A program made the position numbers and the translations under genes. Of a DNA stretch of 49,028 nucleotides, positions 12,055 through 37,607 are shown piece by piece. The notes under the pieces are model-generated. The model was not told the origin of the DNA and searched no databases. It saw only the letters and a list, made by a program, of their open reading frames with translations. Position 1 is the stretch's first letter, and each line of letters opens with the position of its first letter. The DNA is taken from the NCBI GenBank assembly GCA_017961175.1, contig JAGCXV010000065.1, positions 1 through 49,028 of the forward strand, given 5' to 3'. The stretch is from Bacteroidales bacterium. Lineage in GTDB: Bacteria > Bacteroidota > Bacteroidia > Bacteroidales > UBA932.

Positions 12055-13191
12055 CTATTCATAAAACACTTGTCTTTTTAGCCATAGCTTAAACAATGAA
12101 TCGTTTATTGTTATGGTTTGACCATCTATATCAATCAAATCTTTCTTTAAAAGAGCTTTTTTGATGGATTGAACATTTGATGATGATTCCAACCTGTATT
12201 TGTTGATGATTTCTTTTCGGCTGAAACCATCATTAATTCCATTTGCTACAGCCTTAAGAAAATTTAGTTGAAATTCCGAAAGCTGTTCAACCTCTCTTTG
12301 AAAGAACACTTTATTCTGCTCAAGAATGTCATCGATAGCAGAATTAACGTCTTTCTCTGTTACCACTTTGTCGGATTTGTACCAGACTATCCAGGCTAGG
12401 TGCTGAACATATGATGACAGATCTTCAGTTGCCTGGCATATTCTTAGTGCTAATTTTTCAGAAATGCTCTTTCCGGTTTCCTGAAACTTAGAGCAAATGA
12501 ACGGAACCCATTCTTCTGACGGAATTTTCTTTAGGAACATCATATCACCGAATTTATAGAAAGGCATACTCTTATCGTTGAAGATGTTTTCCATCAAATG
12601 TTTCTTGCTGCCGAACATACAGTACGTAATATTCTGCTGGTGCTGCCATACAGAGCGTAGCTTTTTTTGGATTGTCAACGAATCCGGGAAATCAGCAATT
12701 TGTTGAAATTCATCAATGCAAATGACAAGGCGAATTTTCTTTTTTTTCACAATCCTTTCCGGCAATTGCAATATGCCTTCTTTCGTATTGTCTTTTTCTT
12801 CCCAAGAGAAAGAAAGAGAAAAGTCATTCAAAGGGTCAGGGCCAAAAGAAAATTTCGGTGAAATATTGGAGAGAAATGCTTTAGCTGTTTCTACCCATTC
12901 TTCAAGCTTTGATGATGTCTGTTTAATGACAGCTGATGCAAAAGCATGATAAAAATCATATTCGGACTTGCATTGAAAGATGTCTATGAATACTGGTTTT
13001 ATTGTTTTTGTATCAATCTCAGACAATACTTTTTTTACAAGAGAGGTCTTTCCCCATCTCCTTGGAGAAATGAGGATAGTGTTGATGCCATGTGTTAAAT
13101 TTGCCTTAAGACGTTTCGCATCTTCTTCTCTATCAGTAAAATATGAACCTTCTGCAGCTTTCCCGAATACAAAAGGATTTTCTATAGCCAT
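12055..13191 (-). CDS. AAA-type ATPase (archaeal ATPase/STAND-like, ATPase_2 family)
   Basis: A 378-residue P-loop protein: Walker A SPRRWGKTSL near residue 42, Walker B LVICIDEFQQ near 157, a sensor-like segment YCMFGSKKHLM, and a C-terminal winged-helix-like region (GFSRKEIINKYRLESSSNVQSIKKAL). The layout FTDREEDAKRL...ISPRRWGKTSL is typical of Bacteroidetes ATP-binding proteins of the ATPase_2 group, whose roles are mostly unknown. It is AT-richer than its downstream neighbours and diverges from the restriction-modification gene, so it probably belongs to the same acquired island. Four 15-bp tandem repeats lie just upstream of its start. It is only 15 bases ahead of the flavodoxin gene. 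Confidence 0.85.
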   Translation of the reverse strand: MAIENPFVFGKAAEGSYFTDREEDAKRLKANLTHGINTILISPRRWGKTSLVKKVLSEIDTKTIKPVFIDIFQCKSEYDFYHAFASAVIKQTSSKLEEWVETAKAFLSNISPKFSFGPDPLNDFSLSFSWEEKDNTKEGILQLPERIVKKKKIRLVICIDEFQQIADFPDSLTIQKKLRSVWQHQQNITYCMFGSKKHLMENIFNDKSMPFYKFGDMMFLKKIPSEEWVPFICSKFQETGKSISEKLALRICQATEDLSSYVQHLAWIVWYKSDKVVTEKDVNSAIDDILEQNKVFFQREVEQLSEFQLNFLKAVANGINDGFSRKEIINKYRLESSSNVQSIKKALLKKDLIDIDGQTITINDSLFKLWLKRQVFYE

Positions 13192-13666: not shown

Positions 13667-16600
13667 ATGATAACACAGAAAAATATATCCGCACTTCTTT
13701 TGCATTTAGGCTTTACCGAAAGCAATAGCATATTTAAGAGAGACTATTCTCAAGGTGCTAGCATTGAGGTAAACTTTGTTTCACAAAAGATTACCTATTC
13801 TCCATTGGATTCTGATTTCAAAGAGGGCGAGTACCCAACGAAAGATAAGCCAGCTAAAGGATTTGTAATTCATCGTGATACTACCTTGAATTTCAGTGCT
13901 AACGAAAGTTTTGTTTGTCTTGTTTGCGTTCATTTGTTGCTGAAGAAAGGGTATGAGCCTAAGCATATCGTTTTTGAACCAGCTTTTAAAGTTGGTCATG
14001 TAAATAAACCCTCCTACGGAGATATTCTTGTATTTGATAAGGAATACCATCCTCTTGTTTTGATTGAGAACAAAACATATGGTTCGGAGTTTTCGGCCGA
14101 ATGGAATAATATGCAAAAGGATGGAGGGCAATTATTCAGCTATCTCGGTCCACTTGTCAATAGCCTTGGCTTCTGTGAAAATCTTGTTCTTTTTGCCGCC
14201 GATTATGATGAAAAGGAAATACTAAAGAATCATATTATTACTTTAAAGGATAACGACAAGCGATTAAAAGAACTTGATAATCCAAAAACATTCAGCAACG
14301 CACAGGGACGTTATTTTGATGTGTGGAGTGAGACTTATGCCAAGTCATTTGAAACAAAAGGGCTGTTTGAAGATGATATTGCCCCTTATTCTATAGGCAA
14401 ACTAAAATATACCATTAATGACCTTAAGGGACTATCGCATGCGGAGATACGTCCAATTTACCATGAGTTTGCCACAATCCTGCGAAATCATGCAATTACT
14501 GATTTTGAGCACTCGTTCTATATTCTTATCGACTTATTCCTTTGCAAAATAACAGATGAAAGAAACAATCCAAATGACTTGCAGTTCTTTTATAAGGGTA
14601 TTACTCGCGACACGCCAAAGGAATATTGTGCTCGACTCTTAAACCTTTACCAACAGGGGAAGAAACAACTCTTTGGAATTGATGTAGTAAACAAAAACGA
14701 AAGCGACATATCCCAGATATTTGAAGACACCAATCGTTCTGTTACAAATGGTCTTTTTGCTGGGATTAAAGAGCTATTTGAGGAGATAAAGTTCTATAAT
14801 ATCAAGAAGTTTAACTTTATTGATGTTGAGAACAAAGAAGAGTTTGAGATGAATTTCCAAATCCTTATAAAGATAGCTTCCCTTATTCAAGACATCAATT
14901 TAAGCAACAGTGAGACTAATCACTTCTTTGGTGACCTATTTGAAGGCCTTCTTTCAAGAAATGTCCATCAGACTGAAGGACAATTCTTCACGCCCCTCCC
15001 TATTGTTAATTTTATCATTAAATCTCTACCGCAATTCCCCAATTCAAGCAATGTGAAGGTGCTTGACTACGCTTGCGGGGCGGGTCACTTCTTGACAGAA
15101 TTCATAAAATCTTATCCACAAGCGGATGCATATGGTATTGAGAAAAGCCAACCGCTGAGCCAAGTCGCAAAAATTGCAACTATCATAAATGGAGCTAAGG
15201 ATTCTCATATTGTATTTAAAGACTCATTGAGTATCTTTAATACTGCGGAGGTTCGTTTCCAAGGATTTGACAGGGAAAATTTCGACTGTATCATTGCAAA
15301 CCCTCCATATAGCGTAAAAGGTTTTTTGAATACTTTATCAGACAATGACCGACAGCAATTCAACCTTATCAAGTTCGTTAAAGAAAAATCATACGGGTCA
15401 AACGATAGCATTGAATGTTTCTTCATCGAGCGAACCAAGCATTTTTTGCAACCTAACGGATTGGTAGGCATCATCCTACCCGGTTCTATACTCTCAAACG
15501 GGAATCTATATACCAAAGCCCGTGAGTTATTGTTTGAGAGTTTCAACTTATTGGCTATAGTCAATTTAAATAGTCGCACTTTTGGCTCAACTGGCACGAA
15601 CACCATCGTGCTCTTTGCTCAGAAAGTAAAGAAAAATTCAGGAGGACTGCTTGATACTTTTATCAGCAAAAAGGACTATACGCAGTATCTTAGCTATAAG
15701 GCAATAGAGTCCTATATGCAAAAGCAGGGCTACTCAAAGGATGATTATTTTGCTTTTATGCAGGATAATGTCTTGGGTAAGTCTCTTGAAGAACATGAAA
15801 TATTCAATGAATATAAGAAGAAATTCAAGCCCAAAGCTATCAGCCTGTCGGAGAAGAAAATTTGGTTCAAGAGTTCTTCGTATTATCGTTCTGACCTGAA
15901 GGATAATTCAAATGAGAACAAGTCTCTTTTCATTAGTTTTCTTCAGTCTGATGATTATAAAAGATTAGAAAGTGCGGAATATCAAAAAAGATTTATTTCA
16001 TATGCTAAAGTTATCGAGCGCGATAAACTTAACACGTTCATTCAGATTTATGATAATACCGTTGTAATTTTGCAATCGCCCCCGGACAAGGTAAAGAACA
16101 AGAGCAACAAAGATGCGATTGTAAAGTTCCTTGGTTACGATTGGAGTAACCGTAAAGGAGACGAGGGGATTAAATATGTTACTACTCGCTCCTTTACTGA
16201 ATCCGCAGAAGAAGACACCCCAGATGGTGATGAGAAGGACGCAGATGTTGTCGCTGCAATTAATTCAATCAAATACATAGCCACACCGCTTTATAACCCT
16301 AATGATGCATGGGACAGGAGTAAGTTCGCATTTGCTATCCGAAAGCATATCTATAATCAATGTCGTAAGTTCTCGTTCGGGGCCTGCTCAGTCCCAAATG
16401 AATACATTGAGCAGGAGTATGAAGGTGGAATGAATGAATTATTATCTTCCGCTTCGTTGGCAGATATGATTGATTTTAGCCGAAATAGCTTCGACAAATC
16501 AATTAAGTTGACCGCTGATAGAAAGGTAGAGATTGTTAGCAAGTACCCATTAGTTAAATTGGGTGGTAGCGATGGCATCTGCGATATAAGAATAGGTGGG

Positions 16601-17668
16601 ACTCCTTCCAGAAAGAATATGGCTTATTTCGGTGGGACTCATCCTTGGGTTTCAATTGCAGAAATGAATGGTCAAGTAATAACTGATACAAAGGAGAAAA
16701 TCACAGATGCGGGTATTCGAAATTCCAATGTAAAACTTATCCCGAAAGGAACAACCCTTCTCAGTTTTAAACTGAGCATAGGTAAAACAGCTATAGCTGG
16801 AATAGATTTATACACTAATGAAGCAATTGCAGCTTTGATCCCAAAGGATAAGAAACAGGTTTCCGATAAATATTTATTCGCTTTGTTCAGCGGTAAGTTG
16901 ATTGATTTGGAAAATGTTGGAAACAAAGCTTTTGGGAAGAGCCTAAATAGTACATATTTAAACAATGACATAAAAATACCTCTCCCGCCTCCGGATATCC
17001 AACTTAAAATAGTTCAAGAGTGTGAAAAGGTGGACAAGGAGTACCATCGTTCGCGAATGAGTATTGAAGAATACAAAGCGAAGATTGCGGCTATTTTTGC
17101 TCGTCTTGAGATAATTATTAAGAATCAGGGGGGGGTGAAAATCAGTGAGTTATGCGATTTTGTCACCACTAGAACATCCAAGATTGACTTGAGCTCCTAT
17201 GTTTGTACAGATAATATGCTACAGAATTTTGAAGGGGTTATTCCGTTTGAAGGTTCTGCCGTTATTTCTTCGGCCATACAATATATGGCTGGCGACATTC
17301 TCATTTCCAATATTCGCCCGTACCTCAGAAAAATTTGGCATGCGGATAGAAATGGTGCGTGTTCTCCCGATGTGCTTGTACTTCGTCCCAATCTTGAGAA
17401 GATAGATACGGTTTTTCTTTATTATAGTTTAAGAAGAGACCGTTTCTTCGATTTCATAATGGAAGATGCTGGAACAAAGGGAATGAAGATGCCTCGAGGC
17501 AATAAAGCAGAGATAATAAAATTTGAAATAGCCGTTCCATCACCTAAAGAACAGCAATCCATAGTTGAAGAAATCTCACATCTTGATAAGCTCATTCAGC
17601 AAGCGCAGAATGTTATTGAGAATTGTGACTCACAAAAACAAGATATAGTCAGGAAGTATATAAGCTAA
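13667..17668 (+). CDS. Single-chain restriction-modification enzyme (Type IIG/IIB-like: nuclease, N6-adenine methyltransferase, two recognition domains)
   Basis: This 1333-residue protein joins all three restriction functions. Residues 1-150 carry a PD-(D/E)XK nuclease: Asp119 in PSYGDILVFD, Glu134 and Lys136 in VLIENKT. Residues about 420-680 are an N6-adenine methyltransferase: QFFTP at the start, motif I DYACGAG from Asp467, catalytic NPPY at 545-548. The C-terminal third is HsdS-like with two target-recognition halves, about 965-1110 (PLVKLGG..., PLPPPDIQ) and about 1158-1320 (KISELCDF..., VPSPKEQQ), separated by helical spacers. This matches AloI/BcgI-like Type IIB or bipartite Type IIG enzymes. 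A G8 run at codons 1154-1157, between the two halves, is set up for frameshifting. The gene is AT-rich and probably acquired. Confidence 0.92.
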   Translation: MITQKNISALLLHLGFTESNSIFKRDYSQGASIEVNFVSQKITYSPLDSDFKEGEYPTKDKPAKGFVIHRDTTLNFSANESFVCLVCVHLLLKKGYEPKHIVFEPAFKVGHVNKPSYGDILVFDKEYHPLVLIENKTYGSEFSAEWNNMQKDGGQLFSYLGPLVNSLGFCENLVLFAADYDEKEILKNHIITLKDNDKRLKELDNPKTFSNAQGRYFDVWSETYAKSFETKGLFEDDIAPYSIGKLKYTINDLKGLSHAEIRPIYHEFATILRNHAITDFEHSFYILIDLFLCKITDERNNPNDLQFFYKGITRDTPKEYCARLLNLYQQGKKQLFGIDVVNKNESDISQIFEDTNRSVTNGLFAGIKELFEEIKFYNIKKFNFIDVENKEEFEMNFQILIKIASLIQDINLSNSETNHFFGDLFEGLLSRNVHQTEGQFFTPLPIVNFIIKSLPQFPNSSNVKVLDYACGAGHFLTEFIKSYPQADAYGIEKSQPLSQVAKIATIINGAKDSHIVFKDSLSIFNTAEVRFQGFDRENFDCIIANPPYSVKGFLNTLSDNDRQQFNLIKFVKEKSYGSNDSIECFFIERTKHFLQPNGLVGIILPGSILSNGNLYTKARELLFESFNLLAIVNLNSRTFGSTGTNTIVLFAQKVKKNSGGLLDTFISKKDYTQYLSYKAIESYMQKQGYSKDDYFAFMQDNVLGKSLEEHEIFNEYKKKFKPKAISLSEKKIWFKSSSYYRSDLKDNSNENKSLFISFLQSDDYKRLESAEYQKRFISYAKVIERDKLNTFIQIYDNTVVILQSPPDKVKNKSNKDAIVKFLGYDWSNRKGDEGIKYVTTRSFTESAEEDTPDGDEKDADVVAAINSIKYIATPLYNPNDAWDRSKFAFAIRKHIYNQCRKFSFGACSVPNEYIEQEYEGGMNELLSSASLADMIDFSRNSFDKSIKLTADRKVEIVSKYPLVKLGGSDGICDIRIGGTPSRKNMAYFGGTHPWVSIAEMNGQVITDTKEKITDAGIRNSNVKLIPKGTTLLSFKLSIGKTAIAGIDLYTNEAIAALIPKDKKQVSDKYLFALFSGKLIDLENVGNKAFGKSLNSTYLNNDIKIPLPPPDIQLKIVQECEKVDKEYHRSRMSIEEYKAKIAAIFARLEIIIKNQGGVKISELCDFVTTRTSKIDLSSYVCTDNMLQNFEGVIPFEGSAVISSAIQYMAGDILISNIRPYLRKIWHADRNGACSPDVLVLRPNLEKIDTVFLYYSLRRDRFFDFIMEDAGTKGMKMPRGNKAEIIKFEIAVPSPKEQQSIVEEISHLDKLIQQAQNVIENCDSQKQDIVRKYIS
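17128..17135 (+). repeat. G8 homopolymer inside the restriction-modification gene
   Basis: Eight Gs encode the end of Gln1154, Gly, Gly and the start of Val1157 (CAG GGG GGG GTG). With seven Gs the frame reads CAG GGG GGG TGA and stops at once. With nine it reads GGT GAA AAT CAG TGA and stops four codons later. Either change removes the second recognition domain. Confidence 0.85.
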
Positions 17669-37588: not shown

Positions 37589-37607
37589 TTTTTTTTTTGG
37601 GGGGGGG
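37589..37607 (+). repeat. T10-G9 homopolymer tract ahead of the second lipoprotein gene
   Basis: Ten Ts (37589-37598) then nine Gs (37599-37607), starting right after the radical SAM stop codon. Such runs slip easily during replication. It ends six bases before the -7 box TATATTTG. No stem precedes the T-run, so it is not a normal terminator. Confidence 0.85.

Follow-up and report, generated by a model that had tools for sequence, protein, structure and literature searches.

A run of eight G residues (G8) between the two recognition domains (TRDs) of a single-chain Type IIG/IIB restriction-methylation enzyme is likely a slippage-prone contingency tract that switches the protein between a full enzyme with two TRDs and a half form with one, probably altering its specificity. 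The gene lies in a 49,028-nucleotide stretch of DNA from a Bacteroidales bacterium, the whole of which is referred to here as the window. We consider it highly probable that the tract is an evolved phase-variable element and, given such an element, our analysis leans towards a change in specificity over plain loss of activity. G runs at the same joint in homologues, differences in their length, and the existence of short forms make a slippage switch like that of the Neisseria gonorrhoeae Type I system NgoAV the best reading of the data, while the shortness of G8 and the absence of a run from most homologues and from all order- and class-level loci read count against it. Homopolymer switches of specificity are already known; new here would be one in a single-chain two-TRD enzyme and in Bacteroidales.

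Architecture of the enzyme and position of the tract

The PADLOC model REase_MTase_IIG (PDLC03624) covered residues 1-1332 of the enzyme (E 2.2e-251), and Pfam placed N6_Mtase together with two stretches of Methylase_S on this single chain, as expected of an AloI/TstI-like architecture (Table 1). The closest solved structures by sequence were a Type I S subunit (1yf2) and the BsaXI RM protein (8w0p), and no helicase was found among the 12 Pfam families matched in the window. HSDR_N_2 scored 17.9 bits in the putative nuclease region against a cut-off of 25, with homologue L239 just passing at 25.7; we take the GD...ENK residues there to be a PD-(D/E)XK motif, and likewise presume that the connector corresponds to CR1. 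Divergent from the restriction gene is an AAA ATPase gene (12055-13191, minus strand; ATPase_2, 2.9e-09), which weakly matched the defence models PDC-S01 (0.00011) and MADS-8 (0.00099).

Table 1. Features of the window enzyme, and specificity (S) genes carrying a G run at the inter-TRD joint
Feature	Position	Strand	Basis
Type IIG/IIB restriction-methylation gene, single chain of 1333 aa	13667..17668	+	Open frame, PADLOC, Pfam
Putative PD-(D/E)XK nuclease region, residues 90-143	13934..14095	+	Weak Pfam HSDR_N_2; GD...ENK by eye
N6-adenine methyltransferase, residues 418-658	14918..15640	+	Pfam N6_Mtase 1.7e-30; NPPY by eye
TRD1, residues 970-1126	16574..17044	+	Pfam Methylase_S; PDB 1yf2 S subunit 3.7e-34
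Central connector, predicted coil, presumed CR1-like	17045..17125	+	Alignment of 13 S parts; conserved QxxIVxEC...EEYKxKIA
G8 tract, connector/TRD2 joint	17128-17135	+	Read from sequence; gain or loss of one G truncates protein
GTG, candidate restart codon of second half	17135..17137	+	Read from sequence, in second half's frame
TRD2 and tail	17138..17665	+	Methylase_S 3.1e-07 on separate half; also match at 17351-17620
S genes with joint run: window; L132 (G038, same genus); L047/L150 (G049); L151 (G055, G7); L158 (G601); L160 (G041)			

The tract sits at the end of the connector, immediately 5' of TRD2. A first-pass annotation, made from the sequence alone, had placed an in-frame G8 at codons 1154-1157 of 1333, and the exact tract and its open frame bear this out: the context CAG GGG GGG GTG contains exactly eight Gs, which start at the third position of codon 1154 and end at the first position of codon 1157. 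Its predicted stops were reproduced in both frames, with an immediate TGA at G7 and, at G9, the reading GGT GAA AAT CAG TGA, which stops after four codons. The domain order agrees with the further claim that either slip spares the nuclease, the methyltransferase, and the first recognition half but removes the second. The GTG noted directly behind the run is also present in the frame of the second half, and in the G7 state the new stop overlaps it (GTGA). Possible start codons at the run also occur in L132 and L239.

A G run recurs at the joint of some Type IIG homologues

A scan of the contigs of named genomes yielded 15 IIG loci, and further genome searches added more. A script for the connector motif marked 28 places, three of which were a different motif near the N-terminus, leaving 25 distinct IIG homologues including the window enzyme; the motif misses some homologues, such as L048, which has no G6 run. 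We found a G run 100-105 nt past the connector motif in six of the 25, so that the search for a same-site run suggested by the first-pass annotation gave five positive homologues besides the window enzyme. The run measured G8 in the window, L031, and L034, G9 in L237, G7 in L058, and G6 in L239, all read from draft or metagenome assemblies in which a homopolymer miscall is possible. It was absent from the remaining 19, three of which are short forms without a second TRD. Comparing homologues with one another, the joint is in frame in the window, L031, L034, and L237 and out of frame in L239 and L058. Runs of G6 to G9 at one joint, in and out of frame, support the earlier proposal of phase variability by slippage.

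L237, L239, and L058 are distant homologues (35-38% identity over the matched part). L031, from sheep cecum, and L034, from Lentimicrobiaceae, share 76-78% identity with the window enzyme in the nuclease-methylase part, compared to 23-25% in the second TRD; for L031 the values are 78% and 23%, respectively. Both have retained G8 in front of a second TRD unlike that of the window. Among these three genes, the codon that takes up the first G of the run encodes Gln, Met, or Thr, and of the 57 glycines common to all three, nine use a single codon throughout; only two of these are GGG throughout, and they are the two within the run. Since the codon holding the first G varies while the glycines of the run are always GGG, it is the nucleotides that are conserved and not the residues. 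Mixed codons for Gln-Gly-Gly-Val, which the first-pass annotation had named as evidence against its reading, did not appear in L031 and L034, where both glycines are GGG GGG.

A scan of viral contigs returned no other copy of the window gene. G142, a genome of the same order, has the same gene as locus L038 from a Bacteroidales bacterium, which fits the assignment of the window to that order. One further IIG homologue, L055 (949-5403, minus strand; 1484 aa), carries a C-terminal Peptidase_S24 domain (5.1e-12) behind its second TRD.

Natural one-TRD forms and a constrained out-of-frame half

Two IIG homologues, L033 (1151 aa) and L040 (1139 aa), end at or just after the joint, and a third, L042 (1181 aa), ends some 25 residues beyond it. 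A hidden second TRD behind L033, L042, and L040 was considered and rejected: on the strand of the gene, the 1158, 731, and 131 bases searched, respectively, held no open stretch longer than 85 aa and, as judged by eye, nothing resembling an S protein. Because half forms persist in nature, we argue that they do something.

L239 and L058 come from different genomes found in two family searches and are 95% identical over 3.8 kb, yet their runs differ (G6 vs G7). In each, the upstream frame stops within five codons of the start of the run, while a different frame stays open for the 177 codons of a second recognition domain. Between the two genes this out-of-frame half showed a dS of 0.178 and a dN of 0.032 (dN/dS 0.18), with 16.5 synonymous vs 13.5 non-synonymous changes, a split that neutral drift would give with P about 4e-5, while the upstream frame meets 20 and 14 stops across it in the two genes. 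Comparison of the out-of-frame half with an in-frame relative gave a dN/dS of 0.19-0.22, and the upstream part gave 0.056. The constraint on the out-of-frame half may predate the last frameshift.

L240 and L241 have nuclease-methylase parts 92-95% identical to those of L239 and L058, in genomes from two family searches, and recognition domains that differ from theirs. At the sequence level, this pattern points to recent transfer with TRD shuffling.

Some apparent Type I specificity genes of the same family carry a run at the same joint

Methylase_S searches matched 17 of 39 genomes of the genus, 58 of 119 of the family, and 250 of 384 of the order. We read 87 S loci, mostly the best-scoring ones (30 from the genus, 27 from the family, and 30 from the order, new at each level; 275,065 bases). 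These held six distinct sense runs of at least seven Gs, window included, and all six lay at the inter-TRD joint, either 57-83 nt past the first TRD match or 10-20 nt before the second. Without the window, five of five runs fell within 120 nt behind a TRD match, a zone making up 3.8% of the sequence; the resulting P near 8e-8 is rough, as the loci overlap and the 57 genus and family loci represent 47 genes. The run was present in six of these 47 genes and absent from 41. No sense G run was found in the 30 order-level S loci or in 30 class-level loci, read after a class-level protein search that matched 143 of 395 genomes.

The five run-bearing hsdS genes outside the window are apparently Type I, judging by neighboring frames inspected by eye and by methylase-like matches, which lie near L132, L047, and L151. 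These last three are split at the run, and L158 and L160 are in frame. Among genes with a YEYYRDxLLxF-like connector and a readable second domain, the run occurred in five of five within the family and in neither of two outside it, in a count that omits loci cut by a contig end; the family member G002, with a near-miss connector, has no run. C runs were rejected as a joint switch, since the sense runs of at least seven Cs in L168, L189, L192, and L200 are not at the joint; in three of these loci the Cs, as judged by eye, encode the prolines of an IPLPP-like stretch. A sense C run also occurs in the class-level locus L225. The split L132 hsdS gene (G038, contig 115) contains a second simple repeat, a CAGA tetranucleotide array encoding TDRQ repeats, at 2450-2548 and reaching the end of the locus.

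Placement, not length, sets the run apart from chance

Dinucleotide shuffles of the window gave a mean of 1.13 G8 matches, with at least three in 13 of 100 shuffles, compared to three observed matches from two tracts. Tract length alone was dropped as evidence: the tract by itself is not significant because the shuffles yield about one G8 per window. Shorter runs were rarer than expected, with three G5, no G6, and no G7 in the window against first-order expectations of 24, 5.9, and 1.4, respectively. The whole genome (1.92 Mb) contains 42 G6, three G7, one G8, and two G9 runs (counted from 59 rows), and its runs of at least eight Gs exceed the geometric tail (0.23 expected; P about 0.002, a post hoc value). 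It is the placement at the joint, not the length of the run, that goes beyond chance.

Two broader associations of such runs were considered and rejected. Runs of at least eight Gs are no general mark of RM genes, as many were intergenic or within other long frames among 60 regions from ten relatives; this survey includes the tract of L034 itself, omits one G477 tract and all those of G484 and G487, and leaves aside the tracts of L031 and of G049 contig 158, covered separately, while G483 had none. A link to TAnnTTTG, which we take to be the Bacteroides -7 box, was too weak: the box lay within 30 nt of four of 63 tracts, two of them near-identical, compared to two tracts on the opposite side and 1.5% of random places.

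A proposed specificity switch and its precedents

At G8, one chain would carry two different TRDs and be expected to read a bipartite asymmetric site. One G more or fewer would bring a stop within a few codons of the joint, leaving the nuclease, methyltransferase, TRD1, and connector. If such half forms behave like those of NgoAV, EcoR124I-NT, and BsaXI TRD1-CR1, two of them should pair and recognize a bipartite site that is palindromic. In the window gene at G7, the GTGA overlap would also make restart of the second half possible. We infer slippage within a strain as well as activity and specificity of the half form, and likewise any consequence for phage defence or gene expression.

The comparisons below draw on excerpts of the cited reports. 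The closest precedent is NgoAV, whose specificity gene has its two halves separated by a poly-G run; the short form carries one TRD, and the recognized site changes (PMC9577141; PMC6789123). Its short form reads GCAN8TGC and its fused form GCAN7STCA, and the run ranges from six to nine Gs among 92 strains (PMC9577141). The window gene shares the poly-G at the joint of the halves, off-frame lengths that leave one TRD, and both frames among its homologues. NgoAV differs in being a Type I system with a separate HsdS in Neisseria, whereas the window encodes a single-chain nuclease-methylase-specificity enzyme in Bacteroidales with a putative half form.

Further precedents come from other enzymes. 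In Helicobacter pylori JHP1272 and HP1353-HP1354, a homopolymer towards the 3' end of a Type IIG gene determines whether a recognition part is present and hence which site is read; in JHP1272 the second tract adds a domain that converts GGWTAA to GGWCNA (PMC3936762). These enzymes are likened to the MmeI family, their first tract acts as an on/off switch and the second adds a small domain, and they do not have a pair of Type I-like TRDs (PMC3936762). AloI and TstI (1251 aa) resemble the window enzyme in that a single chain carries the nuclease and the methylase and recognizes both half-sites, but phase variation is not mentioned in the excerpts on them, and the likeness is one of architecture (PMC4027205). 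BsaXI TRD1-CR1 is a Type IIB specificity part that ends after the first TRD and a helix; it differs in being engineered and in belonging to a separate S subunit, and this half form is active on AC N5 GT (PMC9159934). EcoR124I reduced to its N-terminal half is likewise described as active, reading GAAN7TTC.

The strongest rival, which has a modest chance of being correct, is a plain on/off switch in which loss of the second half inactivates the enzyme. Its model is Cj0031 of Campylobacter jejuni, a single-chain Type IIG enzyme with poly-G in only some alleles, which is active at G9 but not at G10 and recognizes CCCGA and CCTGA (PMC4889913). The Cj0031 run, however, is found at base 2573 of 3732, flanked by conserved domains and not by a pair of Type I-like TRDs (PMC4889913). 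The Campylobacter likeness drawn by the first-pass annotation thus holds as far as poly-G in a Type IIG gene goes, but it is weaker than the likeness to NgoAV and the H. pylori systems. A second model is the BcgI-like HP1471/JHP1364 of H. pylori, a Type IIB specificity gene with a phase-variable run of 13-14 Gs; it is a separate S subunit whose short form is considered inactive, the genes being treated as off at G13, and the inactivity at the shortened run is also blamed on a missing start codon (PMC3936762). Since TstI forms a tetramer, as AloI appears to do (PMC4027205), a half form of a fused enzyme may assemble badly. Against inactivation stand the three homologues that are natural half forms and the activity of the BsaXI, NgoAV, and EcoR124I-NT half subunits. 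On balance, our analysis suggests that the half-form logic likely carries over to the fused enzyme, the tetrameric single-chain TstI notwithstanding; a specificity switch is our preferred reading.

Other explanations of the run

G runs can serve as a slippery sequence, and the run might act on transcription or on the ribosome to produce a fixed mixture of long and short proteins, with no genetic switch. A constitutive frameshift of this kind would also account for the open second halves of the split genes. We consider it improbable, as run length differs between genes that are 95% identical, a difference that is unnecessary if the frameshift signal is fixed, and as L031, L034, L237, L158, and L160 are in frame like the window gene and need no recoding there.

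Marginally less probable again is that the run is a recombination seam for swapping second TRDs, its slipperiness being incidental. The divergence of the second TRD past the run behind similar front parts in the window, L031, and L034 would fit, as would the different TRDs behind the near-identical front parts of L239, L058, L240, and L241. A seam, however, gives no reason for five of the 11 run-bearing genes (L239, L058, L047, L132, and L151) to be out of frame with both halves open, and homologous recombination needs more than eight bases. Least probable of all is a chance run, or a glycine linker set by amino-acid need with no special mutability: about one G8 per window arises by shuffling, glycine linkers suit a domain joint, and runs of at least eight Gs also occur within other long open frames of relatives, but the codon pattern and joint placement of the runs argue against it, as does an in-gene G8 that goes against the scarcity of G5-G7 in the window.

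The slippage switch, if real, would mean that Bacteroidales diversify methylation and restriction by slippage as well, in Type I and Type IIG systems alike, and that assemblies may display such genes as broken halves. A more ambitious reading, in which the poly-G joint is a family-wide device of Type I and IIG enzymes that toggles asymmetric and palindromic sites while the second half is restarted as its own chain in the short state, the tract thus setting the combinations of halves that assemble and not activity as such, is doubtful, ranking below the on/off switch and slightly above the slippery sequence.

Phase variation in Bacteroides is best known to proceed by DNA inversion. B. fragilis is among the hosts of inverting hsdS loci (PMC7394358), and a review names invertase-mediated genes and counts RM systems among those that are switched (PMC11868660). 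At the level mostly of titles and abstracts, we found no report from Bacteroidales of Type IIG or hsdS genes being switched by poly-G or another simple repeat, nor any of a slippage switch in a single-chain two-TRD enzyme. Simple repeats occur in 7.9% of REBASE hsdS genes, and Bacteroidales hsdS cases may sit within the data of that survey (PMC7394358).

Other G runs in the genome

The two G9 runs of the genome lie elsewhere. One, within the window, is a T10G9 run (37589-37607) that directly follows the stop codon of TIGR04133, a radical SAM/SPASM gene, 35 nt 5' of a gene for a radical SAM-associated lipoprotein (TIGR04134), and TATATTTG stands six bases 3' of the run. It is possibly a promoter-spacing repeat. 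Similar arrangements of T8-T9 followed by G8 occur in L068, L074, and L091. The second G9, on contig 30 of the same genome (L046; 4813-4821), has no long open frame through it; about 1.3 kb ahead of it ends a long frame that, judged by eye, resembles an Rhs gene.
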